A stretch of DNA of 64,000 nt. Origin: Alphaproteobacteria bacterium MedPE-SWcel. Lineage in GTDB: Bacteria > Pseudomonadota > Alphaproteobacteria > Rhodobacterales > Rhodobacteraceae. The stretch lies in assembly GCA_001874255.1 (NCBI GenBank), contig MPDC01000010.1, positions 1 through 64,000 on the forward strand. Reading direction: 5' to 3'. Position numbers and translations under genes: made by a program. A model generated the notes under the pieces. The model saw only the letters and a program-made list of their open reading frames with translations. It was not told the origin of the DNA and did not search any database. Of this stretch, positions 27,147-46,075 are shown piece after piece (within the stretch, counting starts at the first letter, position 1; each line of letters opens with the position of its first letter).

Positions 27147-28262
27147 CTATGCGACAAAGGGGATATCGTGTTCCTGTGCGCTGTAAGATGTGTCGGCGAT
27201 GAGGATCGTATAGTCATCTGAACCGGTCGGCAGGTCGGCCCCGGCGACCCCGACGGCAATCGTTTTGTCCAGTCGCTTTGAAAACGCCCATTCGCTGACA
27301 AACCCGGCCTTCGTGCCGCGATGGAAAAGGGGGACCGGATGACCGACCAAGGGCGGCCGGCCGTCGATGGTCAATCCGACCCGCCTGCGTGTCGGGGGCG
27401 TGGCCGCAAGACGGGTGAGCGCGGCGCGGCCGACAAAGTCGATGTCGGCCTCAAGGTCGATCAACGCGCCAAAACCCATCTCGAAGGGGGTGGTTCGATA
27501 GGTCTGCCAGCGCATGTCCGCGCCATATGAAATCAATCCGCTTTCGAGACGCTCAACATCATTGGGTGCGCCCGGGCCGATGTCGAAATCGGCGCCGGCC
27601 GATTTTACGGCGTCCCAAAGGTCGGCGCCGCGCGTCTGATCCTGTAGGTAGAGCTCAAATCCACCCTGTTTGGACCATCCCGAACGCGCCAGAACCAAGG
27701 GAATGCCATCAAGCGCGGTTTCTTCAAAGCCAAAGTAGCGGAACGCGCGGACCCTGTCGCCAAACAGCCTGGCTGCCACGTCCACCGCTTTTGGTCCCTG
27801 AATTGCCAGCGGCGAGACATCCGGCTCGCTGACCTCGACATTCCATCCCCTTTCGCGGCCCAGCGCGGCGGCCCAGAGGTGTATGTCACTGTCCGCGACC
27901 GACAGCCAATAGCGGTCATCGGCCAGCTTCAGCAGGACCGGATCATTGATGATCCATCCGTCATGATCGCAGAGCGGCACGTACCGGCCCTGGCCGACCT
28001 TGGTGTTGGTCAGGTTGCGGGGGGTCAGGTATTGCGCCATCCGTCCTGCATCGGGCCCTGACAGCTGAACCTGTCGCTGCGCCGCCACATCCCACATTGC
28101 GACGCCGTTCAGCAGGCGGTCATATTCGGCCTCCGGGTCGCCAAAGTGGCCTGGAATATACATGTGATTGTAGACAGAGAAACTCTTGACGCCGTCGCGC
28201 AGGGTTGCGTCAAAGTAGGGCGATTTGCGAATGTTCGGGCCGATGCCAATCGAGAACGTCAT
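27147..28262 (-). CDS. dmdA: DmdA-like protein: DMSP demethylase / glycine-cleavage T (aminomethyltransferase) family
   Basis: A 371-residue folate-dependent aminomethyltransferase-fold protein. Residues RYVPLCDHDGWIINDPVLLK, DRYWLSVADSDIHLWAAALG, EPDVSPLAIQGPKAVDVAAR and LARSGWSKQGGFELYL strongly resemble dimethylsulfoniopropionate demethylase, which transfers a methyl group from DMSP to tetrahydrofolate to give methylmercaptopropionate. Length matches DmdA. DmdA-like paralogues with other substrates are common, so the activity is probable rather than proven. It lies 319 bp downstream of the MmsA-type gene, on the same strand, beside the DddD cluster. That setting supports a DMSP or betaine-like substrate. 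No dmdBCD genes are nearby. Confidence 0.7.
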   Translation of the reverse strand: MTFSIGIGPNIRKSPYFDATLRDGVKSFSVYNHMYIPGHFGDPEAEYDRLLNGVAMWDVAAQRQVQLSGPDAGRMAQYLTPRNLTNTKVGQGRYVPLCDHDGWIINDPVLLKLADDRYWLSVADSDIHLWAAALGRERGWNVEVSEPDVSPLAIQGPKAVDVAARLFGDRVRAFRYFGFEETALDGIPLVLARSGWSKQGGFELYLQDQTRGADLWDAVKSAGADFDIGPGAPNDVERLESGLISYGADMRWQTYRTTPFEMGFGALIDLEADIDFVGRAALTRLAATPPTRRRVGLTIDGRPPLVGHPVPLFHRGTKAGFVSEWAFSKRLDKTIAVGVAGADLPTGSDDYTILIADTSYSAQEHDIPFVA

Positions 28263-28277
28263 TGCGGGTCTTTCAGG

Positions 28278-28313
28278 TTGATGTGGCCTGTGTCTCTTGA
28301 TGTGGCCTGTGTC
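28278..28313. repeat. 17-bp direct repeat upstream of the dmdA-like gene
   Basis: TTGATGTGGCCTGTGTC occurs at 28278-28294 and again at 28297-28313, a 19-bp spacing close to two helical turns. It lies 16-51 bp upstream of the dmdA-like start, within a 319-bp gap that otherwise contains no gene. It could be a tandem regulator site or a simple duplication. Confidence 0.6.
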
Positions 28314-28581
28314 GCCAAATTCAGAACATGCCTGGGCCGTCGGAGTAAAGTCAAAGAATGTGCTCTGAACAGCTTCTTGCGATGATCATACCCGGTTTCT
28401 TCGATGGATTTGGGGCCGGCATCAGTACAGTCGAGCAGCCTTTGAGCCACAGCGGGACTGGAACATTGGGATCAGTGCCGTCGGACGGTGCCCCAAGGGG
28501 GACTGAAACCGGGAAACGATGTGGCCCGACAAATATGCCGGGCCGCTGTGTGATCAGGGTCTTGGGGGCGCGAACCGCGTC
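28314..28581. other. Remainder of the mmsA / dmdA-like intergenic gap
   Basis: No gene is seen. A short hairpin, GGCCCG with CGGGCC around 28518-28540 and without a T-run, lies about 40 bp beyond the MmsA-type stop and could end that transcript. Confidence 0.4.
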
Positions 28582-30084
28582 CTACCCCAGCGTTGGCATG
28601 GTGAACTCAGGGTCTGTACGTTGACCGGAAGGCCAGCGCGTCGTCGTGGTCTTGATGCGGGTGTAGAACCGCACGCCTTCCATCCCGTGCATGTGATGCT
28701 CGCCAAAGATCGACGATTTCCAACCGCCGAACGAATGGTAGGCCATGGGCACGGGGATCGGGACGTTGATCCCGATCATGCCCACCTCGACGTCCTGGCT
28801 GAAGCTGCGCGCAGTATCGCCATCACGGGTAAAGATCGCCGTACCGTTCGCGTAGTCGTGGCTGTGCACCAGATCAAGCGCGTCCTGATAGGAGTTGCGC
28901 CGCACGACTGACAGGACCGGTCCAAAGATTTCCTCTTTCCAGACCGTCATGTCGGGCGTGACATTGTCCAGCAGCGTGCCGCCAAGGAAATAGCCGTTCT
29001 CGTGACCCTGCATCGTCTGGTTGAAGTCGCGGCCATCGACAACGACCTTTGCGCCTTCGGCTTCACCGGCGTCGATGTAGCCGCGAACCTTTGCGAGGTG
29101 CTGCTCGGTGACCAGCGGCCCCATTTCAGACGCTTTGTCGGTGGTCGGGCCGATCTTCAGCGCGTTGATCTTCGGGACCATGATTTTGATCAGGGCATCG
29201 GCCACCGCATCGGTGACAGGCACGGCGACGGAAATCGCCATGCAGCGTTCACCGGCGGACCCATAGGCAGCCCCCATCAGCGCGTTTGCGGTCATTTCCA
29301 GATCCGCATCGGGCATGATGATCGCATGGTTCTTGGCGCCGCCAAGGGCCTGAACACGCTTGCCATTGGCTGTGCCGGTCTGGTGAATGTATTTCGCGAT
29401 CGGGGTCGAGCCGACAAAGCTGACGGCTTTGACGTCCGGATTGTGCAGCAGGGCGTCGACGGCTTCCTTGTCGCCGTTGACGACGTTGAACACGCCTTCA
29501 GGCAGGCCCGCCTCTGACAGCCATTCGGCCAGCTTCAGCGATGCCGACGGCACGCACTCGGAGGGCTTCAGAACGAAGGTATTGCCGGTCACCAGGGCGA
29601 CAGGGAACATCCACATCGGCACCATGGCCGGGAAGTTGAACGGTGTGATGCCTGCGCAAACGCCAAGCGCCTGCCGAATGTTGTGGCTGTCGACAACTGA
29701 CCCGACATTCTCGGAAAACTCGCCCTTCATGAAATGTGGCGCGCCAACGGCGAATTCCACAACCTCGAGCCCGCGTGTCACCTCGCCGACGGCATCGTCG
29801 TGGGTCTTGCCGTGCTCGGACGCCAGGATAGAGGCCAGCTCATCCGCGCGTTCCCAAAGGATGTTCTTGAACTTGTCAAGGATACGGGCGCGGCGCAGGA
29901 CCGGCGTTTTGGACCATTTCGGCCAGGCTGCCTTGGCAGCCGCTACCGCAGTGTTGACTTCGTCCGTTGACGCCAGCGGGACGTCCCGTTCGGACGCACC
30001 GATGGCCGGGTTGAAGACAGGCTGCGACCGGCCGGATGTGCCCTGCACATGTGCGCCGTTGATATAGTGGGTCAGTTCAGGCAT
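28582..30084 (-). CDS. mmsA: CoA-acylating (methyl)malonate-semialdehyde dehydrogenase, MmsA/DddC type
   Basis: A 500-residue aldehyde dehydrogenase. The nucleophile Cys281 is in GSAGERCMAISVAV, while the usual general base glutamate is replaced (ALGGAKNHAIIMPDADLE), as in CoA-dependent methylmalonate-semialdehyde dehydrogenases. PFNFPAMVPMWMFPVALVTG is another hallmark. MmsA converts methylmalonate or malonate semialdehyde to propionyl- or acetyl-CoA with NAD and CoA. In DddD-type DMSP clusters the equivalent enzyme, DddC, turns malonate semialdehyde into acetyl-CoA. It diverges from a LysR gene 99 bp away and has a strong AGGAGGAGA ribosome site. The DddC role is inferred from neighbours; valine/inositol catabolism is an alternative. 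Confidence 0.9.
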   Translation of the reverse strand: MPELTHYINGAHVQGTSGRSQPVFNPAIGASERDVPLASTDEVNTAVAAAKAAWPKWSKTPVLRRARILDKFKNILWERADELASILASEHGKTHDDAVGEVTRGLEVVEFAVGAPHFMKGEFSENVGSVVDSHNIRQALGVCAGITPFNFPAMVPMWMFPVALVTGNTFVLKPSECVPSASLKLAEWLSEAGLPEGVFNVVNGDKEAVDALLHNPDVKAVSFVGSTPIAKYIHQTGTANGKRVQALGGAKNHAIIMPDADLEMTANALMGAAYGSAGERCMAISVAVPVTDAVADALIKIMVPKINALKIGPTTDKASEMGPLVTEQHLAKVRGYIDAGEAEGAKVVVDGRDFNQTMQGHENGYFLGGTLLDNVTPDMTVWKEEIFGPVLSVVRRNSYQDALDLVHSHDYANGTAIFTRDGDTARSFSQDVEVGMIGINVPIPVPMAYHSFGGWKSSIFGEHHMHGMEGVRFYTRIKTTTTRWPSGQRTDPEFTMPTLG

Positions 30085-30183
30085 GGGTTTCTCCTCCTAA
30101 TGCTTGGTCCATCTCCTACAGCCGTGCTAAACTCGAAAACATACACAATTCTGACGACCTGTTATTCGTTTCTGGATGTAGTC

Positions 30184-31077
30184 ATGAACTGGGACGACCT
30201 GAGATTCTTTTTGGCTGTTGCGCGTGAGGGGCAAATTCTTCGCGCGGCGCAACGGCTCGGCACCAGCCAGGCGCGTGTCAACCGGCGGATCACCCAGTTC
30301 GAAGAGGCCTTGGGGGAGAAGCTGTTTGACCGGCGCACGGTGGGGTGCAGCCTGACACAATCCGGCCGGGCTCTGATGCCCAATGCCCTGGCCGCCGAAG
30401 AGGCAATGCTGAAGTTGCGCAGCCCCCCGGGAGCGGCTGGTTCAAGCCGGATCAACGGGACCGTGCGGATTGGCGCTCCTGACGGTTTTGGCGTGGCCTA
30501 TCTTGCGGCGCATCTGCCAAAACTTCGCGCCCTGTATCCGGATCTGAAGGTGCAGCTTGTGCCCGCCCCGCGTGCCTTTTCCCTGTCACAACGTGAAGCG
30601 GATATCGCCATCGTCATCGGGCGCCCGCAAAAGGGGCGGCTCAAGGCGACCAAGCTGACCGACTATTCACTCGGCCTCTATGCCTCGAGGTCCTATATTG
30701 CCGACCGAGGCGCGCCCCAGTCCATTGCGGATCTCGGCGAGCATGAACTTGTCGGATATGTGGACGATCTGATTTATACGCCGGAGCTTGAGTTCAACAA
30801 AAGCTTCTGGCCGGGCTGGAACTCGCAGATCGAGATTTCGAGCGCGCAGGCGCAGGTGACGGCGGTGCGCGCGGGGGCCGGGATCGGTGTCTTGCATGAC
30901 TTTGTCGTCCGGGAGGATCCGGAACTGGTCGCACTGTTCCCCGAGACAAAGGCAGAGAGAAGCTATTGGGTGGTCTGGCATGAGGCGATGGATGCCATTC
31001 CGCATATCTCGGTGACGACACGGTTTATTGTCGAAACCGTACGGCAGGATCGCAGGCTGTTTTCTGCGGAGACCTGA
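30184..31077 (+). CDS. LysR-family transcriptional regulator divergent from mmsA
   Basis: A 297-residue LysR regulator starting MNWDDLRFFLAVAREGQILR. The HTH continues with AAQRLGTSQARVNRRITQFE, and the effector domain begins near GTVRIGAPDGFGVAYLA. The ATG at 30184 gives the standard family N-terminus; the upstream frame extends into the promoter. Similar LysR genes are often found divergent from mmsA-type dehydrogenases, so it probably regulates that gene. It converges on the BCCT transporter gene, with a shared palindromic terminator between them. Confidence 0.88.
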   Translation: MNWDDLRFFLAVAREGQILRAAQRLGTSQARVNRRITQFEEALGEKLFDRRTVGCSLTQSGRALMPNALAAEEAMLKLRSPPGAAGSSRINGTVRIGAPDGFGVAYLAAHLPKLRALYPDLKVQLVPAPRAFSLSQREADIAIVIGRPQKGRLKATKLTDYSLGLYASRSYIADRGAPQSIADLGEHELVGYVDDLIYTPELEFNKSFWPGWNSQIEISSAQAQVTAVRAGAGIGVLHDFVVREDPELVALFPETKAERSYWVVWHEAMDAIPHISVTTRFIVETVRQDRRLFSAET

Positions 31078-31089
31078 TGTCGGGCGAGA

Positions 31090-31114
31090 GAAAGGGGGCC
31101 ATGAGCCCCCTTTC
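31090..31114. terminator. Bidirectional terminator between LysR and BCCT genes
   Basis: A perfect 10-bp palindromic stem, GAAAGGGGGC (31090-31099) with GCCCCCTTTC (31105-31114), and a 5-nt loop lies between two convergent genes, 12 bp after the LysR stop and 5 bp before the BCCT stop. The flanking A and T bases in the stem allow it to act in both directions. Confidence 0.85.
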
Positions 31115-31119
31115 AGACG

Positions 31120-32775
31120 TTATTCGACAGCGTGCACTGTCTGGACGCCGTTCTTCGAACGGATACCGTCTTTCACGATAGCTTTAACGAGGGAAATGCA
31201 CATCAGAACCATCACAAGCGAGAACGGCAACGCGCCAATGACCATGGCGGATTGAATTGCCCCCACGCCACCAGCGACCAGCAGACCACCGACAACCAGC
31301 GACAGAGCGGCGCCCCAGAAGATGATGTGCGGGCGGCCGGATGGTTTTTCAGCACCGGCGGCGTTGATTGTGTTCACGATCAGGATCGCGGAGTCGGCTG
31401 TTGTCACCAGATATGTGAGCAGCAGAACCACGACGATCACGGCCATGCACCACGCCAGACCAGACCCGAGGATGAAGTCGAGCATCGCGAACAGCTGGTT
31501 CTGCTGACCCGCGCCAGAGATCGCATCGCCTGCGCCACCGTTCAGGCTCAGGTCGATGGCTGTGCCGCCGACGACCGTGAACCAGACGAAACACATCAGG
31601 GAGGGGATGATGATCGCACCGAGGATGTACTCGCGCAGTGACCGGCCGCGGGAAATCCGTGCCAGGAACACGCCGACGAACGGTGCAAACGCGATCCACC
31701 ATGCCCAGTAGAAGACGGACCAGCCACCTTGCCAGCTCGCCAATTGCGCCGCTTCGCTGCCTTCAACACCGTCTGACGTCCAGACTGTGAACAGCAGCTT
31801 TGGCAATTGAACGAGGTATGCGAACAGGCCCTCGACCAGCGCGCTCAGGCCAAAGAACGTGGACCCGAAGAGCAAGAAGAAAGCAAGCAGGAAGAAGCTC
31901 AGGCCCATGTTGATGTTCGACAGCCACTTGATGCCTTTGCCGACGCCGGACAGGGCGGACATCGTGGAGGCCCCCATGATGATCAGGAGTGCCGTGATGA
32001 TACCGGCGGTCGAGGGCGACCCTGTTTCCGCAACGATCAGCCAGTCCCCAAATCCAATGCGATGCAGACCGGATACGAACTGCTCGACACCAAAGCCAAG
32101 GGTTTGTGCCACGCCGAGAATGGTTGCGACAACGGCTACGATGTCGACGACGTGACCCAGGAGCCCAGAGAGGTTCTCACCAAAGAGCGGCGTCAACGCG
32201 GAGCGGATCGTCAGGGGCAAATTGCGACGGTATGAGAAATAGGCCAGCGACAGCCCGACGATGGCGTAGCACGCCCAGGCCGAAAACCCCCAGTGCAAGA
32301 AGGACCAGAGGTAGGCGTTCGTGACGTTGTCAGCGGCGGACGCACCGCTCTGTCCCATGATGACATTGGGGTTGGTTGCAAAGTGATACATGGGTTCGGC
32401 GGTTGCAAAGGTGAGCATGCCAATGCCGATACCGGCCCCGAACATCATCGAGAACCAAGAGAAGCTGGAAAATTCCGGGGTGTCGTTTTCTAGACCGAGC
32501 TTCAGACGGCCGGTGCTTGGGATCAACGCCAGAACGATGCAGATGAGCAGGAACAGGGCGACCACGTAGATGTACCAGCTCGAGAACGTACCAAGCAATG
32601 ACCCGTTCAAGTCACCCAGAATTTTTGCAGCTGTATCGGGCACTGCAATGGCCCAGACAATGAGGGCGGCAATGAGAATTTTTGATGTGATTGCAACGTC
32701 TTTGCTGAAACCAGTATAAAATCCGCGATCAGCGGTTTGGATGGGTAAATCCATCAATGGGGGTTTATGTGCCAT
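31120..32775 (-). CDS. BCCT-family betaine/carnitine/choline-type transporter (probable DMSP uptake, DddT-like)
   Basis: A 551-residue secondary transporter with about 12 membrane helices. The BCCT signature region FYWAWWIAFAPFVGVFLARI followed by SRGRSLREY is present, as is AYLWSFLHWGFSAWACYAIV with the tryptophan-rich substrate cage. BCCT carriers import quaternary ammonium compounds and DMSP with sodium or protons. The start at 32775 has a near-perfect ribosome site (AGGAGG); the frame to 32847 is rejected. It is downstream of dddD on the same strand, as in known DddD clusters where the transporter is called DddT. DMSP as the substrate is inferred from the neighbours. Confidence 0.9.
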   Translation of the reverse strand: MAHKPPLMDLPIQTADRGFYTGFSKDVAITSKILIAALIVWAIAVPDTAAKILGDLNGSLLGTFSSWYIYVVALFLLICIVLALIPSTGRLKLGLENDTPEFSSFSWFSMMFGAGIGIGMLTFATAEPMYHFATNPNVIMGQSGASAADNVTNAYLWSFLHWGFSAWACYAIVGLSLAYFSYRRNLPLTIRSALTPLFGENLSGLLGHVVDIVAVVATILGVAQTLGFGVEQFVSGLHRIGFGDWLIVAETGSPSTAGIITALLIIMGASTMSALSGVGKGIKWLSNINMGLSFFLLAFFLLFGSTFFGLSALVEGLFAYLVQLPKLLFTVWTSDGVEGSEAAQLASWQGGWSVFYWAWWIAFAPFVGVFLARISRGRSLREYILGAIIIPSLMCFVWFTVVGGTAIDLSLNGGAGDAISGAGQQNQLFAMLDFILGSGLAWCMAVIVVVLLLTYLVTTADSAILIVNTINAAGAEKPSGRPHIIFWGAALSLVVGGLLVAGGVGAIQSAMVIGALPFSLVMVLMCISLVKAIVKDGIRSKNGVQTVHAVE

Positions 32776-32870
32776 GTTTCCTCCTAAATGGCTATTTAAC
32801 GCCAGACGCACTTGGTCCTCCCACGCGCGCAATTCACGCGTGCCCAATGTCGTTGGTCTGACTTACATGT

Positions 32871-32917
32871 GGTGGGCGCAGGTCTCTGACCTTTCGGCCA
32901 GGTGACACACGCCCACC
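32871..32917 (-). terminator. Large intercistronic hairpin downstream of dddD
   Basis: GGTGGGCG (32871-32878) pairs with CGCCCACC (32910-32917). The loop contains a smaller stem (AGGT/ACCT). It starts 7 bp beyond the dddD stop and precedes the BCCT gene by about 95 bp. No T-run follows, so it may only attenuate transcription or protect the dddD transcript end. Confidence 0.45.
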
Positions 32918-32923
32918 GACAGG

Positions 32924-35431
32924 TTAGCTCGGCAAATACTCCTCGCTCCAGGACTCGCTCAGGTTGCCGGATTTGATCATCGCCTCGATGGCGGTGTCGA
33001 CGTAGCCCAACTCGCGCAGGATCGCGCGGGTCGAGGCTCCAAATTTTTCGGCCGGTGTCACGGCCATGACTTTGCCCCGCACAGTGCGCACGGCATAAGG
33101 GTCCAGTTGGATGACTTCGTGGCCGCTTGGGTGGTCGGGATATCGGGAAAACGAATAGCTGCCGTTACCTGTTCCGGCGTCGCCATCAGCGTCCCGCAGG
33201 TTCATCGCCCGCAATGAATTGAGGTTTTCACAGATCACCGCGCCAATGTCAGCAGCTTGCAAACGTTCGATCCATTCCTTGGCAGGCTGCGCCTGAAATG
33301 CGGTCGCCAAATAGGCTGCGCGGTCTTCTTCCGGCAGATCCGGAAGCTCTTCCAGCCCCTCGACGTTGCGGAACCGCGGCAGGTCATGCTCATAGGCGCT
33401 GAGCAGAATATGACGCGATGCAGTGCTGTAGAAACGAGTGAGTGCATCATACCCGCTGGCCTCGGGGCCCGAGGGTTCGTCATACAGTCCACGCCCTTTG
33501 TAGTCAAAGGCGAAAGGAACCTGCAGCAGGCCGCTGTTTGACGACAGCGATGTGCGGCCACGGCCGATGCGCCCGTGGCGATGTTTCTGATACAGAGCCG
33601 CCGCGACGCCCAACGCGCCCCCAAACCCGCACATGACATCGATCGTGCCGACATGGGCATGTTCTTCGGGACGATCCATCGCACCACCAAAACGCAGCAT
33701 GATCCCCGTGGTTGCCTGCACGAGATCGTCATAACCGATATAATCCGTGCGCGCGCCGCGCCGCACGCCGCTGAAACAATCCAGCTTGCAAAACAGGGCG
33801 TCCGGGTTGAGCTTGCGCAGGTTTTCCGCATCCAACCCCATCTTCCTGATCTGGTTGTCAGGCGCGTTCCAGACAATCACATCCACCGATTTCACCAGAT
33901 CTTCAAACACCTGACGCCCGTGGCGCGATGTGATGTCGGCCAGGATAGAGCGTTTGCCCCGCATCTGGGACATGCCGTAGATAACGGTGTTCCAGCTGTC
34001 ATACATTGGATCGGCTGGCTCGAGCTTGATCACCTCGGCGCCGAACCGCGCCAGATAGCTGGCAGAATGCGGCCCCGCGATCACATTGCACAGGTCCAAC
34101 ACCCGCACCCCGGAAAGCCAGCCTTCTTGCTCAATCGCTTCGGAGGCATCGGGAATTTCGGTCCGGTGTTTCCTGAGGAGCTTCAGGGCTTCGTCATATT
34201 CGACCCAGCGACGGGGCGCCGGCTGCAACGCCTCTTCGCCGCTTTCCTCCATCCAGACCACGGGGCCGGGTTGCGTCATGTCGCCATAGACGGGATCATG
34301 CACGTCGATCATCAGGCCAGAGGTTTCCGCAAATTCGTCATGCACCCATTCCTGCAACCAGCGCTGCGGCGCACCGGGAATAAGCCCACGGCCAAACATC
34401 TTTTTCCACTCATGCGAGGTGCGGGTCATAAAGACCTCTTTCATCCGCGCCGAGATCTTGTCAGCCCAGTCCTTCGGCATCGGATAAACCCCGAGCGACG
34501 TCTTGCTCTCCCATTCAGACCAGGGCCTGTAGGTGTTTTCCTCCGATGTCAGCCCCTCTTCGACCAGCTCATCATAAATGCCGAGCACCTCAAGGCAGCG
34601 CCGCGCGTGGTTCTTGTGACTTGGGCAGACAACATAGAACCCGCGTCCGTCCTTGCACATGTAGCTGCGAAAGAACGGATCCATCAATTCCTGAAGGTCT
34701 TCGTAGCTGACGTTCATCGGCAGACCTTCGACGCGCCGGCGTTCGATTTCGACTTCGCGTTGGGTCAGGTAGCGTTCCGGCATGCCGTCGACATGGATCG
34801 AGTTGTAGCACAGCCCTTCCATGACCGCGGCCGCCAGCGGCACCTCTATCTGATCACCGAGGCCGGTCAGCTGACGCGACTGAAGCGCCAGAACCGTTGC
34901 AGATGCCGCGATCTGTGACGCATAGGCCGAGGCCAGGGGCAGGGGCGAGAACGACGGGTTCAGCCCCATGAGAACACGGTTCAACCCCATGTCGGTGAAC
35001 ACGCCGGAACTGGCCGACACGATGCTTTCATAAGCGCGCAACTCGCGGCGCTCAGCGTCGTTGGATGCAAAACCCGGCACGGATATCGTAATCAGTTCCG
35101 GGCGTTCTGCGCGCATTGCGGCGAAATCAAACCCCAGCTTGGCAAACTTTCCGGGGCGGAAGTTTTCAACGATGATGTCAGCCTCGGCACATAGGTTACG
35201 CGCCTTTTCCAGCCCGTCTTCGGACTTCAGATCGAGGTTCACGATGACCTTGTTGCGGTTCAGCGTGGCATTGGCCGGGCTGTCCCACATCGGCCCTTCC
35301 GGCGGGTCGATATGCACGATAGTGGCCCCCAGGTCACCAAGCAGCATAGCGACAGCAGGGCCAGCAATATACTGTCCAAAATCAACGACCTTCACACCGG
35401 TGAGCGGCAGTTTGGAAAACGAATTACGCAT
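32924..35431 (-). CDS. dddD: DddD-type DMSP CoA-transferase/lyase (class III CoA-transferase, fused two-domain)
   Basis: An 835-residue protein with two CaiB/BaiF class III CoA-transferase domains (about 8-420 and 437-835), matching the length and tandem design of DddD. DddD transfers CoA from acetyl-CoA to DMSP and cleaves it, releasing dimethyl sulfide and 3-hydroxypropionate(-CoA). Recognisable segments are VKVVDFGQYIAGPAVAMLLG, EGPMWDSPANATLNRNK, VENFRPGKFAKLGFDF and, in the second half, HVGTIDVMCGFGGALGVAAA. In the last of these, Asp598 lies close to the catalytic aspartate reported for Marinomonas DddD (recalled, not checked). It is 42 bp downstream of the DddA-type gene, and a BCCT carrier follows. 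Strong assignment. Confidence 0.92.
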   Translation of the reverse strand: MRNSFSKLPLTGVKVVDFGQYIAGPAVAMLLGDLGATIVHIDPPEGPMWDSPANATLNRNKVIVNLDLKSEDGLEKARNLCAEADIIVENFRPGKFAKLGFDFAAMRAERPELITISVPGFASNDAERRELRAYESIVSASSGVFTDMGLNRVLMGLNPSFSPLPLASAYASQIAASATVLALQSRQLTGLGDQIEVPLAAAVMEGLCYNSIHVDGMPERYLTQREVEIERRRVEGLPMNVSYEDLQELMDPFFRSYMCKDGRGFYVVCPSHKNHARRCLEVLGIYDELVEEGLTSEENTYRPWSEWESKTSLGVYPMPKDWADKISARMKEVFMTRTSHEWKKMFGRGLIPGAPQRWLQEWVHDEFAETSGLMIDVHDPVYGDMTQPGPVVWMEESGEEALQPAPRRWVEYDEALKLLRKHRTEIPDASEAIEQEGWLSGVRVLDLCNVIAGPHSASYLARFGAEVIKLEPADPMYDSWNTVIYGMSQMRGKRSILADITSRHGRQVFEDLVKSVDVIVWNAPDNQIRKMGLDAENLRKLNPDALFCKLDCFSGVRRGARTDYIGYDDLVQATTGIMLRFGGAMDRPEEHAHVGTIDVMCGFGGALGVAAALYQKHRHGRIGRGRTSLSSNSGLLQVPFAFDYKGRGLYDEPSGPEASGYDALTRFYSTASRHILLSAYEHDLPRFRNVEGLEELPDLPEEDRAAYLATAFQAQPAKEWIERLQAADIGAVICENLNSLRAMNLRDADGDAGTGNGSYSFSRYPDHPSGHEVIQLDPYAVRTVRGKVMAVTPAEKFGASTRAILRELGYVDTAIEAMIKSGNLSESWSEEYLPS

Positions 35432-35473
35432 GTGACCTCCTGTAAGACGTCAAGATATCGGTGATAAGTGGGG

Positions 35474-37150
35474 TTACTGGCCGGCCAATATCCAGCCAGC
35501 GGCCTTTTCGGCGATCATGATGGTGGGCGAGTTGGTGTTGCCGCTGGTGATTTCCGGCATGACGGATGCATCCACCACGCGCAGTCCCGCGATCCCCTTC
35601 AGGCGCAGATGCGGGTCCAGAACAGCCGCGTTGTCCTCCTCGCGGCCCATTTTGACGGTTCCGACGGGGTGGAAAATGGTGCTGGCAATATCGCCGGCAA
35701 GCCGTGCCAGATCATCGTCGCTTTGATACTGAATGCCGGGTTTGTACTCTTCCGGGGCGTATGGCTTCATTGCGGGCTGCGACATGATTTCGCGCACCTG
35801 CCGCAGGCTATCGGCCGCGACTTTGCGGTCGTCCTCGGTGTCGAGGTAATTCGGCGAGATCTTGGGGGCATCGCGGAAGTCACCCGATGCAATCCGCACA
35901 TGCCCGCGGCTGGTCGGGTTCAGGTTGCACACACTGACCGTCATGGCCGGGAAATCATGCAGGTCGTCTCCGAAGGCTTCGAGGCTGAGCGGCTGCACGT
36001 GATATTCGAGGTTGGCGTGGCTGCGGCTTGGGTCTGACCGGGTAAAGGCCCCAAGCTGGCTCGGGGACATGCTCATCGGGCCAGAGCGTTTGAACAGATA
36101 TTCCAGACCGATCTTGGCTTTGCCCAGCATGGAATTGGCCAGCGTGTTCATTGTGTTCGTGCCTTTGACCTTGAACACCGCCCGGATTTGCAGATGGTCT
36201 TGCAGGTTTTCACCGACGAAGGGCTGGTCCAGGACCACGTCGATACCATGCTCTTTCAGCAAAGCGGCGGGGCCGACTCCCGACAATTGCAGGATCTGGG
36301 GGGAGTTTACGGCTCCGGCAGACAGGACAACCTCTTTGCTGGCGGTCACCGTGACGGGTCTACCTTCGCGATGTACTCTTGCGCCGACACAGCGCAGGGC
36401 ACCGTCGGGGCCTTTCGCGAAGGTCAGTTTCTCGACTTGTGCCTCTGTCCAGATGGTCAGGTTCGCGCGGCTCTTGGCGGGGCGCAGAAATGCCTTGGAG
36501 GTGTTCCAGCGCCAGCCAGACCGCTGGTTCACATCGAAATATCCCACCCCGGCATTGTCGCCGCTGTTGAAATCGTCAGTCTTCTGGATGCCGTTTTCTT
36601 CTGCGGCATCGGCAAAGCTGTCCAGGACATCCCAACGCAGGCGCTGCTTTTCAATGCGCCACTCGCCACCATGCCCGTGCATGTCCGAAAACCTGCTGTT
36701 GTTACCTGTGACCGGATCGGCGCCATCATCCAGCTTGTAGTGGTTTTCATGGGCCTTGAAATCGGCAAGCGAGTTTTCCCAGTTCCAGGCCTCTTCCCCG
36801 GTCAGCTCGGCCCAGTTGTCATAATCGCGGGCCTGGCCACGCATGTAGATCATGCCGTTGATGGACGAGCATCCACCCAGCGTCTTGCCACGTGGATAAA
36901 GCAGGCTGCGCCCGTTCAGCCCCTTGTCTGCTTCCGTCTTGTACATCCAGTCGGCGCGCGGGTTGCCGATACAGTACAGATAGCCGACGGGGATATGGAT
37001 CCAGGGATAGGTGTCCGGCTTTCCCGCTTCCAGAAGCAGCACCTTGTTGGCCGGATCGGCGCTGAGACGATTGGCCATCACACACCCGGCGGAACCGCCG
37101 CCAACCACGATATAGTCGAACCCGTTCAAACCTTCAGACATTTTGGTCAT
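35474..37150 (-). CDS. dddA: GMC-family dehydrogenase, DddA-like (3-hydroxypropionate oxidation)
   Basis: A 558-residue FAD-dependent GMC oxidoreductase. The FAD site is YIVVGGGSAGCVMANRLSAD, the GMC signature LYPRGKTLGGCSSINGMIYM is near residue 85, and the active-site region contains IFHPVGTVKMG and GNTNSPTIMIAEKAA. Several GMC members oxidise choline, but in characterised DddD clusters the adjacent GMC enzyme DddA oxidises 3-hydroxypropionate to malonate semialdehyde. It is the first gene of a minus-strand operon with dddD, divergent from a LysR gene over an AT-rich palindrome. Two starts (MTK at 37150 or MSE three codons later) are possible. Role by context; family certain. Confidence 0.85.
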   Translation of the reverse strand: MTKMSEGLNGFDYIVVGGGSAGCVMANRLSADPANKVLLLEAGKPDTYPWIHIPVGYLYCIGNPRADWMYKTEADKGLNGRSLLYPRGKTLGGCSSINGMIYMRGQARDYDNWAELTGEEAWNWENSLADFKAHENHYKLDDGADPVTGNNSRFSDMHGHGGEWRIEKQRLRWDVLDSFADAAEENGIQKTDDFNSGDNAGVGYFDVNQRSGWRWNTSKAFLRPAKSRANLTIWTEAQVEKLTFAKGPDGALRCVGARVHREGRPVTVTASKEVVLSAGAVNSPQILQLSGVGPAALLKEHGIDVVLDQPFVGENLQDHLQIRAVFKVKGTNTMNTLANSMLGKAKIGLEYLFKRSGPMSMSPSQLGAFTRSDPSRSHANLEYHVQPLSLEAFGDDLHDFPAMTVSVCNLNPTSRGHVRIASGDFRDAPKISPNYLDTEDDRKVAADSLRQVREIMSQPAMKPYAPEEYKPGIQYQSDDDLARLAGDIASTIFHPVGTVKMGREEDNAAVLDPHLRLKGIAGLRVVDASVMPEITSGNTNSPTIMIAEKAAGWILAGQ

Positions 37151-37312
37151 CCACCCATCAGTCGTTTCAATGCCGTGTGCGTGCTGAGAGGGGCAAAGAA
37201 ATATCTCGCTTTAACACGGCATATCGAGCGGCCGTGGAAAGCCCGGGGTGCGGTTTGCGTTCCCTCCCAGAACGCTGACTTGGCTTTTCTCTGGGCGATG
37301 GGCGCGAAAAAA

Positions 37313-37344
37313 TCTAATGACAAATCGCACAATGCGATATTAGA
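37313..37344. promoter_or_regulatory. Nested palindrome, probable LysR operator of the ddd operon
   Basis: An inner perfect inverted repeat, ATCGCA (37324-37329) and TGCGAT (37333-37338), carries the T-N11-A LysR consensus. An outer pair, TCTAAT (37313-37318) and ATTAGA (37339-37344), surrounds it. It lies 9 bp before the LysR start and about 165 bp from the dddA start. The closeness to the LysR start suggests autorepression plus activation of dddA-dddD. Confidence 0.65.
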
Positions 37345-37353
37345 ATTTTTTAT

Positions 37354-38265
37354 ATGGATCGTTTTTCGAATATTAACACCATCTTGGCATTTGTGACTGT
37401 GGCGCGGGAAGGAAGCGTTTCGCGTGCTGCCGAGGTGCTGAACCTGACCCAACCGGCCGTCAGCCACCAGATCAAGCGGCTGGGTGAAGAGACGGGAATC
37501 ACGCTGTTCAACAGAACGCCCACGGGTCTTCAGATCAGCCATGACGGGACGGCAGTGTTGTCAAAGGCCGAACGGGTCCTGGATGCAATGAGCGACTTCC
37601 AGCGCAGTGCCCGCCAGCGCTCCGGCCAGATCGCGGGCAAGCTCCGGATCGGCACCATCGTCGATCCGGAATTCATCCGATTGGGACGTATGCTGGCCCG
37701 GCTGCGCACTGAACATCCCGGCATTGAAACCCAACTGGTGCATGGCGTCAGTGGCGATATTTTGAAATGGTTGAAGAACGGTCGAATTGATGCCGGTTTC
37801 TATTTGTGTGGCCCCGATGACCTTGAGCAGATGGGCGCCGAAAGAGAAGATCCGATCCGTGCGATCAAGCTCGCAGATTTCACATATCGCGTCATAGGGC
37901 CGGTCGGTTGGCAGAAAGACGTCGAAAACGCCAACTGGACATCGCTGGCGACGCTCCCCTGGATCGGCACGCCTGAAACCTCGGTCCATCATCGCCTGTT
38001 GGCCAAGATCTACGATGATCTGGACAATCGGTTGAACGTGGTCGCGTTGGTTGACCAGGAGGCTTCGATGTTGGAGATGGTGCGATCCGGCATCGGCCTG
38101 AGCCTGTGCCGCGATTCCATAGCGCTCCACCAAAAGCAATCTTTCGGCCTGGCTGTCTGCAATTCAGTTTCCGTGCCTGCATGTCTTTGCTTCGTTGCCT
38201 TGGATCGTCGAAAGGATAGCCCGATACTCTCTGAGACATTCAACCTGTTGCAAAGTTCCTGGTAA
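37354..38265 (+). CDS. LysR-family regulator of the ddd operon (DddR-like)
   Basis: A 303-residue LysR regulator with HTH residues TILAFVTVAREGSVSRAAEV, then LNLTQPAVSHQIKRLGEETG and LFNRTPTGLQISHDG. The effector domain starts near GKLRIGTIVDPEFIRLG. It is divergent from dddA-dddD, a position occupied by a LysR regulator (DddR) in known DddD clusters. A palindromic site sits directly before its ATG. The effector could be DMSP or 3-hydroxypropionate; this is inferred from family and context. Confidence 0.88.
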   Translation: MDRFSNINTILAFVTVAREGSVSRAAEVLNLTQPAVSHQIKRLGEETGITLFNRTPTGLQISHDGTAVLSKAERVLDAMSDFQRSARQRSGQIAGKLRIGTIVDPEFIRLGRMLARLRTEHPGIETQLVHGVSGDILKWLKNGRIDAGFYLCGPDDLEQMGAEREDPIRAIKLADFTYRVIGPVGWQKDVENANWTSLATLPWIGTPETSVHHRLLAKIYDDLDNRLNVVALVDQEASMLEMVRSGIGLSLCRDSIALHQKQSFGLAVCNSVSVPACLCFVALDRRKDSPILSETFNLLQSSW

Positions 38266-38408: not shown

Positions 38409-40973
38409 TCACGAACTCAATGCACGCAGGCTGAGGCGGGCTTCGTGCTGCAACACAAAGGCACGCAATTCGTCAACCGGAAGCGGCTTGCAAAAGGCGT
38501 AGCCTTGTAGGGTGTGGCACCCGATGTCGCGAAGCATTCGGGCATGCTCCATGGTTTCCACACCCTCGGCAATTATGCGCAAGTCGAGTAGCTGCGCCAT
38601 CCCAATGATATGTGTGAGCATCTCATGGGCCAATGGGTCTGCCGTGATCGGGCGGATCAGGCGTTGATCAACTTTCATGGCGTCGGGACGCAATTGCATC
38701 AGGCCCACGACCGAGGCGTGACCGGAGCCGAAGTCGTCAATCTCGATTTGAACGCCGGCGTCCCGCAAACGGTCCAGGCCATAATGGAAATGGTCGTTCT
38801 GCTCCTCGACGAGAACAGATTCCAGAATTTCAAACACGATCATCGGCCCATCTGAATGATGCGTTTTGATCTGTTGGTAGACTTCCTCGTTTCCTATGCG
38901 GTCGACTGTGACATTGACGGACACTTTTGGGATCTTGATCCCAAGAGGTTGAAGGCTGTCGATCTGTTTCAGAGCTTTTTCAAAAATCTGATTGTCGATG
39001 TCCTCAATGAGAGACAGCTGTTCCGCGACCGGTAGAAATTGGGTCGGCATCTGGAGCCCCAAGTCTGGCGAATGCCACCGGGCGAGAGTTTCCACGCCGA
39101 CGATCTCATGAGTGCGGGCATCAAATTGAGGCTGGAAATAGGGCTCAAACTCTTCGCGCTCCACTGCGTGGCGCAGTTCACGCGCGAGTGTCCGGTGGTT
39201 CAGAACCTTGTGATGCAGCTCGGAGGAGTAGATATGAGCACAATTCCGTCCAGAGGCCTTTGCCTCATAGAGCGCGGCGTCGGCACCGATGTTCAACTGA
39301 TCGAAGGCGAGAAGGCCATCGCGGGTGCTCGCGACGCCGAAACTGGCGCCTACTCGAACGGGTTTGCCGTCAAAGATGGCTGGGGTGGAAATGCGTTCCA
39401 GCATCCGCAAGGCCAGTCTTTCGCCATCCTGTGAGGTTGCACTGGGGTCAAGAAGCACGACGAACTCATCACCACCGACCCGGGCGGCCAGGTCGGTGGA
39501 CCGGGTTTCGGTTTGCAGGATGTGGGCCACTTCGCGGAGAAGGAAATCCCCGGCATCGTGACCCATTGTGTCGTTTACGTTCTTGAAATGATCCAGGTCG
39601 AAGCGGACAATCGTCGTTGACTGATCGGGAATTTCGGCCCGCAGCGCCAAGGCACGGTCCAGTCCACGCCGGTTCTGGAGGCCCGTCAGTGGATCATGTA
39701 TCGCCTGATGTTCAATTTCACGCTTTGCGGCAATGATCGCTTCGTGCTGTGCACGGGCTTCGGTCACATCGTTGGATATGGCCATATAGCCATAGGGCTG
39801 TCCCTTGTCGGTCTTCAGCGGTGAAATGCTGAGGCTGACCCAATATGACGTACCGTCATGCCGGTAGTTGAGGATGTCTGCCTGAACCGCCTGCCGCCTT
39901 TCCAAGGCGTTGCGGATTTTCGCCCGCGTCTCGATGTCGGTGTCCGGCCCTTGCAGGAAGGCGGCGGGGCTCATTCCCCGAACGTCTTCCAGAACATGGC
40001 CTGTCAATGCTTCGAAGGATGGGTTGGTCCATACGATCTTGCTGTCGAGGTCTGTGATTATGATGGCGTCATTGGCGCGTTGAGCGATTGCGGCCAATTC
40101 GCTCAACTCAGCCTGTTTTGCTTCCAAGGCCTGGTGCGGTTCTATAATGACCGCCTTGCTCGCAATGGCAAAAATGGCGAATGCACCGACAAGGACGATG
40201 GAAATCGCAAGTGTGCTATTGGACAGAAGCGCGCGTCCGGCCGTCTGAACGGCGACTTGATCTGGCACCAGGATGACGGAAATCTGGAAATCCTCTAGGG
40301 CGCGCACTTCGGCAGAGCCGCTTTGGACCATATCAGAAGGCGTTCGAACCAGATATGTGCGTTTCACAATATCATTGGCGGGGAAAATCGCCTCGGTGTC
40401 GAGCCGGTACCCCGATAGAAGCATTCCCTCAATGTAGCCCTGATGCAGCACCGGTGTGGTGAGGACCAGATAAGTGTCCTTGCCGCGTGCGTGCAGAAGG
40501 ATCGGTTGCCGCAGGGGAGTTGCCTCCCTGTGCGCGTCCGCCAACAGGTCGGATATCTCGCCCTGTTCAAAGAATTGCCGTTCGTCAGGACGGACATCAT
40601 AGGTTGAAAGAGGCTCATCAAAGGCGTCATAGAATGTTACCCAGGACAGCTCCTGCGTCATGCGCAATCCCTGCAAGACATCCGGCATGTATTCGGGGTT
40701 TTCATCGAAGCCCAGCGCGATATTGATTAAATTCGGATCATTGGCGATAATCGACATCAAAACCTGATTGTGAGACAGCAGGGCGTCGAGATGGCCGCTG
40801 GCTTCATCAGCCTGTGCCTGAATTGCGCTGTATTGATAGTTCTTGAAGAATGGCAAGGCGACGTATCGGATGGCCAGCATCGAGCTGAGCAGCGTCAATG
40901 CGAGGACAAGGGCGGTCAGAACCCAGAAACGACGCGCCACCGCGGTCGATCGCAATGTGAGTTCGGTTTGCAT
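38409..40973 (-). CDS. Membrane sensor with periplasmic domain, PAS, GGDEF and EAL domains (c-di-GMP turnover)
   Basis: An 854-residue protein. Membrane helices lie at about 16-38 and 252-275, enclosing a periplasmic sensing region. PAS/PAC spans about 295-410 (NDAIIITDLDSKIVWTNPSF). The GGDEF motif at 500-504 is intact and is preceded five residues upstream by RSTD (491-494), a classic RxxD inhibitory site. In the EAL domain (about 595-845) the signature reads VETLARW (EAL changed to ETL), but FEILESV, IDDFGSG and AEGVET are kept. It should make c-di-GMP; phosphodiesterase activity is possible but altered. Its ATG abuts the stop of the periplasmic binding protein gene, so the two are translated together and probably signal together. 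Confidence 0.9.
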   Translation of the reverse strand: MQTELTLRSTAVARRFWVLTALVLALTLLSSMLAIRYVALPFFKNYQYSAIQAQADEASGHLDALLSHNQVLMSIIANDPNLINIALGFDENPEYMPDVLQGLRMTQELSWVTFYDAFDEPLSTYDVRPDERQFFEQGEISDLLADAHREATPLRQPILLHARGKDTYLVLTTPVLHQGYIEGMLLSGYRLDTEAIFPANDIVKRTYLVRTPSDMVQSGSAEVRALEDFQISVILVPDQVAVQTAGRALLSNSTLAISIVLVGAFAIFAIASKAVIIEPHQALEAKQAELSELAAIAQRANDAIIITDLDSKIVWTNPSFEALTGHVLEDVRGMSPAAFLQGPDTDIETRAKIRNALERRQAVQADILNYRHDGTSYWVSLSISPLKTDKGQPYGYMAISNDVTEARAQHEAIIAAKREIEHQAIHDPLTGLQNRRGLDRALALRAEIPDQSTTIVRFDLDHFKNVNDTMGHDAGDFLLREVAHILQTETRSTDLAARVGGDEFVVLLDPSATSQDGERLALRMLERISTPAIFDGKPVRVGASFGVASTRDGLLAFDQLNIGADAALYEAKASGRNCAHIYSSELHHKVLNHRTLARELRHAVEREEFEPYFQPQFDARTHEIVGVETLARWHSPDLGLQMPTQFLPVAEQLSLIEDIDNQIFEKALKQIDSLQPLGIKIPKVSVNVTVDRIGNEEVYQQIKTHHSDGPMIVFEILESVLVEEQNDHFHYGLDRLRDAGVQIEIDDFGSGHASVVGLMQLRPDAMKVDQRLIRPITADPLAHEMLTHIIGMAQLLDLRIIAEGVETMEHARMLRDIGCHTLQGYAFCKPLPVDELRAFVLQHEARLSLRALSS

Positions 40974-42197
40974 TCAACGAGGGTCCTCGAGACGACCGTC
41001 CGCACCAAAACGCGCGAGACAAAGGTCCGTCTGTCCCAATGCCTCGTGGGAATCGGGCGCGGTCACATCATAGGGCGAAAAGGGGGTCTTGTAGTTCTTG
41101 AGAACCCCGGGGACCGGTTGGTGGAGGTTTTCCAGCGCAGCCTTCAGCGCGCGTCGTTTGGCGTCGATATCGCCCTGCCAATCGGAGCCTCGAGCCGCCT
41201 GTTCCGCGGCGGAAATCAGAATGCGGGTCAGGTCGTACCCATGCACAAAGCCGGTTGGCGCGGACACGTCTGAGAGGCTTCGCGCTTCGGGCAGAGCTTG
41301 GCGCAATGCAGCGCGCAAGACAGGATTGCCGCTGCGCTCGCGCCGCAATCCACAGGTCTGCAGTACCGACAGTGAAAGAGCCGTACGCGTTTCATGCGGT
41401 ACATTCTGACTGAACGCTCCGCCCATGATGCCCCAATGGCTGAACAGTTTGACACCGGGAAGACGGTCGGCCAGTGCATTGGCAATGAGCGCGCCGTTTC
41501 TCCAATCGGACAGCATGATGACGCACTCCGGATTGAACCGTCCGAGCTCGTCCACGAGCGTACCTGCTGCGGCTTCGCCTATTGCGGTGGGAAAAAACTC
41601 CACGTGATCAGGCCGGAGGTCGCGCGCTGCCAGGGCTGCCTCCAATGTGTTGCGATTGGCATGCCCCCAGCCGGTATCCATCAACAGCAAGGAAACAGAT
41701 TGGCACCCTCCCTGCGTAATCGCCGCGTCCACGAGGAAGCGACCGGATTGAAAATCGTCAACGGACAGGCGGAAAATCCAGTTTTCGAGATCCCGGCCCG
41801 CGCGGGTGATGGGGCCGGCCGCTGACCAGGGCAGGGCGGTCAGGAGGCTGTTTTCGTTAATGAAATCCCTATGGGTGAGATAGGGGGGAGAATGCATTCC
41901 GCCAAACATGAGCAGCGCGGTTTCGCTTGCCTGCATCTCTTGCATATGTCGGAAGGAGCGTTTCACGTTGCCGCGATGATCCTTCTGTACAACGGTGACC
42001 GTCAGGCCGCCCAATCGGTAATCGACCTCTTCCAGAGCGGTTCGAATTCCAAGCTCGATTGAGGTCGATGAGGCAGGACTCTTGGCAAAATCGGCGTCGA
42101 TGAATATTTCCAGGGGTGTCGCCGCGGCAGGGTTATTTTTGCTCACGCTGACACAGACGCAGATCGCAAGGAGCCATTTCAAAACATCGCGCAACAT
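40974..42197 (-). CDS. Periplasmic type I binding protein (Leu/Ile/Val-binding-like), paired with the GGDEF/EAL sensor
   Basis: A 407-residue exported protein. The N-terminus MLRDVLKWLLAICVCVSVSK resembles a signal peptide or anchor. The body has the alternating fold of type I solute-binding proteins: LEIFIDADFAKS, IRTALEEVDYRLGGLTVTVV, ALLMFGGMHSPPYL, SVSLLLMDTGWGHANRN and CVIMLSDWRNGALIANAL. No ABC permease or ATPase lies nearby. Instead its stop codon directly touches the start of the GGDEF/EAL gene. It is therefore likely a ligand-binding partner that feeds a signal to that sensor rather than a transport component. The ligand is unknown. This role is inference from gene order. Confidence 0.8.
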   Translation of the reverse strand: MLRDVLKWLLAICVCVSVSKNNPAAATPLEIFIDADFAKSPASSTSIELGIRTALEEVDYRLGGLTVTVVQKDHRGNVKRSFRHMQEMQASETALLMFGGMHSPPYLTHRDFINENSLLTALPWSAAGPITRAGRDLENWIFRLSVDDFQSGRFLVDAAITQGGCQSVSLLLMDTGWGHANRNTLEAALAARDLRPDHVEFFPTAIGEAAAGTLVDELGRFNPECVIMLSDWRNGALIANALADRLPGVKLFSHWGIMGGAFSQNVPHETRTALSLSVLQTCGLRRERSGNPVLRAALRQALPEARSLSDVSAPTGFVHGYDLTRILISAAEQAARGSDWQGDIDAKRRALKAALENLHQPVPGVLKNYKTPFSPYDVTAPDSHEALGQTDLCLARFGADGRLEDPR

Positions 42198-42336
42198 CTG
42201 AGAACTTTCACTGACTAAACAACCGTCGACCCTCCGAGCCTAGGTGAGCCCGGTTAATGAAGGGAAAAACAATCCTTTCAATTTTGTACTTTCCAGAGAT
42301 ACCGGCGAATATTTGCTGTCCAATTACGATGGCGGC

Positions 42337-42966
42337 TCAGATCCGCACAATCGCTCCGCCTGCCGCCCGGGCATCTTCGTCATCATGAGTGACCAGCATC
42401 GTCGGCAGGCGCCGCCGAGATGCAAAGGCAAACACGAGCTCTCGCATCCTGGCTCTGAGCGGTGCATCCAGCCGCGAAAAGGGCTCGTCCAGCAACAACA
42501 GCGCCGGATCTGACAGAAGCATTCGCATCAAGGCAACGCGGGCTTTTTGCCCGCCGGAGAGGCTGTGCGGATCGCGGTCGTGAAACCCCTCCAGCCCGAT
42601 GTCGGCCAAGGCGTTTTCAACCTGCACCCGCCGTGCGGCTCGGGCAAGGCCCGGCCTGAGGCCAAACGCGAGATTTGCACCGACGCTCAGGTGGGGAAAC
42701 AGCAAATGGTCCTGATACAGAATGCCGACGCGGCGGGCCTGTGGCGGCAGCTCGGTCAGGTTGCGCCCGTTGAGTGTGATGCTGCCGCTCAATGTGAAAT
42801 CTCGCGACAGCTGGCCGGTTATGGCCGCGAGGAGCGTGGATTTCCCGGAGCCGGACGGCCCCATCACGCTCAGGATCGCGCCGGGGGCGACATGCAGATC
42901 GAGCGACACCAGCACATGGTCCAAATGGCGGATCGTGACGGTGTTCAGGCGCAGCCCGTCATCCAT
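42337..42966 (-). CDS. ynjD: ABC transporter ATP-binding protein, YnjD-like
   Basis: A 209-residue ATPase starting MDDGLRLNTVTIRHLDHVLV at 42966. Walker A GPSGSGKST, Q-loop LYQDHLLFPHL, signature LSGGQKARVALMRML, Walker B LLLDEPFSRLD and H-loop LVTHDDEDA are all present. It lacks a TOBE domain, as YnjD and ThiQ do. The start overlaps the end of the permease gene by 8 bp. It powers the YnjBCD-type importer, whose substrate is not established. Confidence 0.88.
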   Translation of the reverse strand: MDDGLRLNTVTIRHLDHVLVSLDLHVAPGAILSVMGPSGSGKSTLLAAITGQLSRDFTLSGSITLNGRNLTELPPQARRVGILYQDHLLFPHLSVGANLAFGLRPGLARAARRVQVENALADIGLEGFHDRDPHSLSGGQKARVALMRMLLSDPALLLLDEPFSRLDAPLRARMRELVFAFASRRRLPTMLVTHDDEDARAAGGAIVRI

Positions 42967-44668: not shown

Positions 44669-44694
44669 GCTGCGGACTCAGGCTGGCACCGGGA

Positions 44695-45894: not shown

Positions 45895-46075
45895 GACCAT
45901 TCCCTTGATATTCTGCTTCTGCGTGGCATCCCGCCGGAGCGACGTCCCCGGTTCGCGACCCTACCGCCCAGATTGCCGATCTGCACGGCAAGGTCCACGT
46001 CCTTGACGAAAACGTGACAGACAGTGTGGGGGATGGCCGTGCGATGATTGCGGCCGCTTGCGTTGAGCGGGCCGG

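Follow-up and report, generated by a model that had tools for sequence, protein, structure and literature searches.

Does a bacterial locus that carries a dddD gene beside a dmdA-like gene hold a switch between two competing routes of dimethylsulfoniopropionate (DMSP) use, namely cleavage by DddD and demethylation by DmdA? The question is raised by positions 27147–38265 of the window, a 64,000-nucleotide stretch (contig C2:1-64000) of the 4.08-Mb genome of Alphaproteobacteria bacterium MedPE-SWcel, whose nearest relatives in our 122-row and 61-row protein trees are Roseobacteraceae/Paracoccaceae. Gene content, block borders, phylogeny and neighbourhoods were established directly in this study. 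In our reading, the locus probably consists of two independent units lying side by side: a transferable dddD island and a gene for a tetrahydrofolate (THF)-dependent sulfonium demethylase, whose substrate is most likely S-methylmethionine. The pairing of dddD with the DmdA-like gene is most likely a juxtaposition in this genome and not a DMSP switch, because the linkage recurs in no other dddD locus examined and the window protein does not appear to be DmdA.

Identity and probable mobility of the dddD island

All seven open reading frames (ORFs) that an earlier note had placed at 27147–38265 were recovered there, with profile matches to the expected families. The features are as follows; identities refer to the Phaeobacter piscinae plasmid pP13_b.

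25569..26107, no strand, IS1182-family transposase remnant near the left side (partial NF033551 match and repeat)
27147..28262, minus strand, DmdA-like GcvT-family methyltransferase of 371 amino acids (GCV_T and GCV_T_C domains; apparently a paralogue, not a DmdA orthologue)
28263..28581, no strand, intergenic gap of 319 bp from dddC to the DmdA-like gene, outside the shared dddD block
28582..30084, minus strand, dddC, mmsA-type malonate/methylmalonate semialdehyde dehydrogenase (family profile; 95% identical)
30049..31077, plus strand, LysR regulator 1 (listed ORF overlaps dddC; 93% identical)
31120..32847, minus strand, BCCT carrier in a DddT-like position (family profile; 79% identical)
32924..35431, minus strand, dddD, putative fused double class-III coenzyme A (CoA)-transferase DMSP lyase (domain architecture and similarity)
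35474..37150, minus strand, dddA, predicted GMC 3-hydroxypropionate dehydrogenase (GMC oxidoreductase family; function from its place beside dddD)
37354..38265, plus strand, LysR regulator 2, divergent from dddA (right end of the shared block)
38409..45900, minus strand, right flank with a GGDEF-type gene, binding proteins and ABC genes (named by eye)

The cleavage island proposed in the earlier note was borne out: 28582–38266 is an authentic six-gene dddD block in the order LysR, dddA, dddD, BCCT carrier, LysR, dddC, real and ordinary, and a member of an already known kind. The predicted DddD comprises 835 amino acids with two CoA_transf_3 stretches, the DddD architecture, and D598, the Asp of the GT(I/L)D motif, which we take to be catalytic, is kept in all five aligned homologues, one of them from a more distant group at 42%. 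Identity reaches 66% to the Sinorhizobium fredii NGR234 protein and 52–54% to Pseudomonas homologues; in Pseudomonas sp. MPC6 (53–54%) the gene adjoins a BCCT carrier, an iron alcohol dehydrogenase and mmsA. A tblastn search of plasmid records returned 42 records with a relative at E ≤ 1e-100, the best matches being two P. piscinae plasmids at 91% identity. By similarity, the product of 32924–35431 thus groups with known DddD and not with other CaiB proteins, the grouping being judged by identity alone, without a tree, against a paralogous group at 41–44%. As in known systems, dddD clusters with dddA, dddC, BCCT (dddT) and LysR genes. The dddC product scores 667 bits (cut-off 448.5) on the CoA-acylating methylmalonate-semialdehyde dehydrogenase model, and a BCCT gene lies beside dddD in 4 of 12 fetched family loci at 77–89% identity, with a fifth at 32%.

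The same six genes, in the same order and at 82–84% DNA identity, occur on P. piscinae pP13_b (NZ_CP010769.1), a plasmid typed as conjugative. In blastn comparison, the shared DNA is window 28583–38266 only, from the dddC stop to the end of LysR regulator 2. A tyrosine recombinase (integrase) gene follows dddC on the plasmid, at the place that the DmdA-like gene takes in the window. Four congeners (G293, G296, G304 and G305) have the right-flank block (38409–45900) with no dddD alongside, and on the left lie an IS1182 transposase fragment (25569–25808; NF033551, 2.5e-7, partial) and a stretch, 25618–26107, repeated in congeners and at the host's own contig ends. Because pP13_b shares this block alone, with an integrase gene behind it, and because the flank exists without dddD and an IS1182 repeat lies nearby, the six-gene block looks like a mobile unit. 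The cleavage pathway clearly appears here as a single unit in two different settings, of which one is a conjugative plasmid.

Members of the 41–44% group were rejected as DddD, and none was counted as such: the one annotated example read, from Ruegeria AD91A, lies with saccharopine dehydrogenase-like and cyanophycin genes. Four roseobacter loci (L164–L166 and L170) carry this type at 42–43%, L170 being the annotated example; these proteins are probably not DMSP lyases, yet are easily annotated as DddD. In two further loci, L218 (G301) and L219 (G298), dddA stands with a divergent LysR regulator 2 and no dddD nearby, and dddA is likewise without a nearby dddD in L017; a 3-hydroxypropionate dehydrogenase gene can therefore occur without dddD.

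Relationship of the DmdA-like protein to DmdA

Judged from its sequence, the product of 27147–28262 is a DmdA paralogue and not the host's DmdA. It scores 370.8 bits on NF009133, the NCBIfam DmdA equivalog model, below the 410-bit cut-off, and shares 35% identity with Pelagibacter ubique DmdA (3tfh) and 42% with the host's own DmdA. The latter is encoded on another contig (C5:86403-87506; 700.3 bits), with acuI directly adjoining, and a third host paralogue, at C23, scores 371.6 bits. In the 61-row bootstrapped tree, the DmdA clade comprises 14 rows (100/100; SAR92 and Ruegeria pomeroyi DmdA are not among them), and the window protein lies outside it; the 122-row tree splits canonical DmdA from the window protein in the same way. 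The smaller tree combines 46 rows of the larger with the six orthologues from the genus and 9 DmdA loci out of 29 additionally fetched; the larger tree omits one sequence (L142, which has one internal stop and was translated with X). The reading of the gene as encoding a DMSP demethylase is therefore not supported. The earlier note had held that grouping with non-DMSP proteins would tell against its proposal, and the phylogeny goes largely that way, in that it puts the protein outside the proven DmdA clade.

The protein nevertheless resembles DmdA, 3tfh being its closest solved relative (1e-78), far ahead of N-methyl enzymes. Both the GCV_T folate-binding domain and the C-terminal domain are present, and the SGWSKQGG-x-E-x-Y motif is kept with its Trp, Glu and Tyr, as are domains and motif in other DmdA-like clades; the host's own DmdA has Tyr at the Trp position. 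We equated W171/E178/Y180 of the DmdA study PMC7487153 with these residues by spacing (Trp being W197 of 3tfh and W196 here). As that study reports Trp also in DmdA-like clades classed as non-DmdA, the residue does not settle the substrate.

The absence of dmdBCD asserted in the earlier note held within the window, where no dmdB, dmdC or dmdD match of note was found; dmdB and dmdC were not searched genome-wide. A Phaeobacter inhibens DmdD query against the whole host genome, in a search without positive control, gave nothing at E ≤ 1e-30. Neither acuI nor dmdB, dmdC or dmdD was found beside the DmdA-like gene in the window or in the fetched stretches of the 22-row clade to which the window protein belongs.

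Other DmdA-like clades have neighbours of their own. One, to which the host's C23 paralogue is related, adjoins dmdB/C/D in Rhizobium (L049), a metagenome-assembled genome (MAG; L068), Mesorhizobium (L094) and a Marivivens plasmid (L098), with all three genes in L094 and L098 and two of the three in L049 and L068. Since the C23 paralogue scores below the cut-off, this may be an alternative demethylase clade missed by the DmdA model. On Phaeobacter and Loktanella plasmids (L173, L174 and L176), a repeated cassette of Lrp regulator, DmdA-like gene, OsmC, enoyl-CoA hydratase and acyl-CoA synthetase lies near recombinase, transposase or conjugation genes. An O-acetylhomoserine sulfhydrylase-like gene adjoins the DmdA-like gene or lies no more than about 2 kb from it in L090, L294, L295, L050, L061 and L057; such proteins could reuse methanethiol for methionine. 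In five loci of SAR116 and related bacteria (L038, L042, L043, L056 and L070), a gene for a threonine-aldolase-like, pyridoxal phosphate (PLP)-dependent protein directly precedes the DmdA-like gene.

Conservation of the dddD linkage

The linkage of competing DddD and DmdA routes, as the earlier note had it, did not hold up. Gene calls in relatives were mechanical ORFs or codon-usage picks, and a neighbour was counted as absent when BLAST did not find it in the stretch that had been fetched; eight of the stretches (L019, L027, L029, L152, L155, L161, L217 and L220) stop at contig ends. A dddD of the window's kind (at least 65% identity) was found in 13 of 295 sampled family genomes, host included, with one partial match at 86%. 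The DmdA-like gene lies beside it in none of the 12 other family loci fetched (9.7–19.9 kb, some cut by contig ends) and in none of the four other loci of the genus, which comprises 18 genomes including the host. Six other congeners carry the DmdA-like gene and four others dddD, never adjacent; G299 and G303 hold both, on separate contigs. Together with the end of the pP13_b block at dddC, this led us to reject a DMSP switch as the meaning of a linkage seen only in the host among the loci examined.

In five of the six congeners (G300, G303, G304, G297, which is L024, and G305, which is L020), the DmdA-like gene is instead housed in the rplQ-rpoA-rpsK-rpsM ribosomal locus, whose protein names were recognised by eye from translations. 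A PhnA-type gene adjoins it in four of these five, the PhnA domain being confirmed for L212.

Methionine gamma-lyase as the recurring partner

The recurring partner of the DmdA-like orthologues is methionine gamma-lyase (MegL). The 22-row clade represents 20 distinct genomes, and in six of them (L021, which is G123; L022; L028, G280; L178, G200; L179, G178; and L180, G222), megL directly precedes the DmdA-like gene. This count merges L213 and L215 with L020 and L024 (identical rows); two Nioella loci in which megL is not beside the gene (L025 and L026) fall outside both the 61-row tree and the 20 genomes. The order is a divergent Lrp/AsnC gene, megL, the DmdA-like gene and a large gene resembling 2-oxoacid dehydrogenase E1; three of the six genomes have another Lrp gene in between. 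The MegL proteins of L021, L022 and L028 exceed the 666-bit equivalog cut-off (715, 739 and 710 bits), and that of L022 has an L-methionine gamma-lyase as its best solved match; those of L178, L179 and L180 were identified by similarity.

The association extends to the 295 family genomes, of which 28 contain MegL (E ≤ 1e-150), nine the DmdA-like orthologue (at least 57% identity) and five both (Fisher p = 5e-4). In all five the two are adjacent, with 29–80 bp between matches. In the 61-row tree, the window protein is nested among megL-linked rows, in successive groups of 15 (100/87), 14 (97/85) and 12 rows (97/92), the innermost of which has no megL link. The simplest history involves two changes of the link, for example one gain and one loss. 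Neither this pair nor an S-methylmethionine–THF demethylase was found in our literature searches, judged mostly by title and the opening of the abstract. The megL-linked DmdA-like group is thus apparently new, in that we did not find such a group with that partner reported.

Proposed functions and alternative explanations

For the dddD island, protein roles are taken from the respective families: the BCCT protein would import DMSP; DddD would transfer CoA and release dimethyl sulfide (DMS), with 3-hydroxypropionate or its CoA ester as the remaining product; DddA would oxidize this product to malonate semialdehyde, which DddC would convert to acetyl-CoA; and the LysR proteins may respond to a pathway intermediate. 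For the neighbouring protein, substrate, reaction direction and regulation are likewise inferred. MegL splits methionine to methanethiol, ammonia and 2-oxobutyrate, and Lrp-type regulators often sense amino acids. Because the partner degrades methionine and the regulator is of the Lrp type, methionine is the expected product and S-methylmethionine the expected substrate; gene order thus suggests a methionine-type sulfonium, most likely S-methylmethionine. The DmdA-like protein, descended from a lineage that worked with MegL, would pass one methyl group from S-methylmethionine to THF and so yield methionine and 5-methyl-THF; for DmdA, methyl transfer with a sulfonium as donor and THF as acceptor is established (PMC5395565). 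In relatives, MegL would then release methanethiol, ammonia and 2-oxobutyrate from methionine, the last being taken by the E1-like protein, and in the host, where no MegL above the cut-off was found, the reaction would supply methionine and one-carbon units. More tentatively, the window protein may belong to an undescribed enzyme group of THF-dependent demethylases of S-methylmethionine (or a similar methionine-type sulfonium), evolved beside DmdA and standing in Rhodobacteraceae with MegL under an Lrp-type regulator, as a DMSP-free route from a plant or algal sulfonium to methanethiol and methyl-folate.

Several observations weigh against this proposal. The megL gene is not beside the DmdA-like gene in 14 of the 20 genomes (some of the stretches being short), including the host, where none was found directly upstream in the window and the best genomic MegL match stays below the cut-off (382 against 550 bits); no common partner was found in these 14, save the congeners' ribosomal locus. 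The Trp, Glu and Tyr that the DmdA study ties to DMSP/folate contact are kept. Functional SAR92 DmdAs are reported to be just 35–40% identical to two ratified DmdAs (PMC10746254), and because these work in vivo, a protein may be far from DmdA and still act on DMSP. Furthermore, dddD co-occurs with the DmdA-like gene in two of nine family genomes (borderline, p = 0.054), and in a Sulfitobacter MAG (L017) a dddA with 85% identity to that of the window lies 280 bp behind the DmdA-like gene. This second, differently arranged contact with a 3-hydroxypropionate module may mean that the link is not pure chance.

Some of these points would fit an additional DMSP demethylase that has diverged and been drawn into the island, where the cell could choose locally between releasing DMS and passing the methyl to folate. 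Such recruitment would accord with the full dddD island next door in the host and dddA in L017, the conserved DmdA-type domains and motif, the activity of diverged DmdAs (PMC10746254) and the related clade that adjoins dmdB/C/D (L049, L068, L094 and L098). We nonetheless consider it unlikely: the protein falls outside the DmdA clade, the host already has DmdA-acuI, the gene stands beside dddD in no other examined locus, and the 22-row clade has megL, not dmdB/C/D, as its recurring neighbour. Betaines are common BCCT carrier substrates, and GcvT-fold relatives include dimethylglycine and sarcosine enzymes and the trimethylamine N-oxide demethylase, so that demethylation of an imported nitrogen betaine (glycine betaine or dimethylglycine) might be envisaged. 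This is very improbable, given that the protein carries no fused oxidoreductase domain, that none of 20 neighbour proteins scanned at 14 loci is a dimethylglycine- or sarcosine-type flavin adenine dinucleotide (FAD) enzyme, that DmdA leads the N-methyl enzymes well as closest solved relative, and that the context is sulfur amino acid metabolism. The fallback of the earlier note, action on a relative of DMSP, accordingly finds general support, its betaine version none, the context pointing to a methionine-type sulfonium. Hardly any weight can be given to the whole of 27147–38265 being one co-selected, operon-like DMSP island: five of the seven genes do share a strand, but the pP13_b copy stops at dddC, a 319-bp gap precedes the DmdA-like gene, and in five congeners the orthologues sit in a ribosomal-protein locus.

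Counts of dmdA-like genes are commonly used to estimate marine DMSP demethylation. When a related clade has another substrate, its position next to dddD, as in the host, could mistakenly be taken for a DMSP switch, and S-methylmethionine demethylation, if true, would supply additional methanethiol and one-carbon units, which gene surveys would credit to DMSP. The part worth testing is the DmdA-like group with its different recurring partner.

Comparison with known systems

Known dddD islands include Marinomonas MWYL1 dddBCDRT, Halomonas HTNK1/D47 dddTD-dddCA and S. fredii NGR234 dddD, the last strain being listed among dddD bearers (PMC3338564). With these, the window shares DddD, a BCCT carrier, a DddA-type 3-hydroxypropionate dehydrogenase, DddC and LysR, as far as they are described in PMC9327192 and PMC13104084; it differs in its gene order (LysR-dddA-dddD-BCCT-LysR-dddC), its two LysR genes and the lack of acuN, acuK and acuI in the block. 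In Halomonas D47, LysR control of dddTD and dddCA by 3-hydroxypropionate and acrylate is reported (PMC13104084).

That a single bacterium can have both DddD and DmdA has been published before. Three SAR92 strains hold both; their dmdA genes gave an R. pomeroyi mutant back methanethiol production, and two of the three strains are reported to release no detectable methanethiol (PMC10746254). Rhodobacterales HTCC2083 has a DddD homologue and dmdA-acuI (PMC3338564). Our search for SAR92 DmdA took in 369 genomes from the class to which a Gammaproteobacteria MAG belongs; 26 of these gave a match at E ≤ 1e-75. The order dmdA-acuH-dmdB-dmdC occurred in none of the 20 surroundings read, of 41 matches listed, so that the functional SAR92 DmdAs were not placed. 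In one locus (L279), a DmdA-like gene adjoins a dmdB-like gene and a weak dmdC-like gene.

The window protein and DmdA (P. ubique 3tfh; P. inhibens pPGA1_262) have in common GCV_T and GCV_T_C, the SG(W/Y)SKQGG motif and the following Glu and Tyr; they differ in identity (35–42%), clade, model score and partner, which is acuI or dmdBCD for DmdA and megL, or none conserved, for the window protein's clade. SAR11_1265 is likewise described as a DmdA-like paralogue without an assigned substrate in a genome with true DmdA (PMC3160333). It adjoins metF, not megL, and is not among the rows of the trees made here; its authors guessed at a second DMSP demethylation (PMC3160333). Bacterial use of S-methylmethionine is reported through homocysteine methyltransferases such as MmuM, and Bmt demethylates DMSP and betaine (PMC12366255). 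Unlike the reaction proposed here, MmuM and Bmt pass the methyl to homocysteine, not THF, and belong to a different protein family (PMC12366255).

Further features of the window

The helix-turn-helix match of LysR regulator 1 begins at residue 48, and its true start probably lies further inside the listed ORF, which overlaps dddC. An Rfam scan of 23000–42500 gave no match, and promoter-like and terminator-like matches in the 28263–28581 gap were no more frequent than in shuffled sequence. At 19326–25290, ABC genes, a GMC (choline dehydrogenase-like) gene and a gene for an MSMEG_0569-like flavin oxidoreductase lie on one strand. The ABC ATPase scores over the polyamine potA cut-off, the permeases were named by eye, and the region is likely another uptake and oxidation unit.

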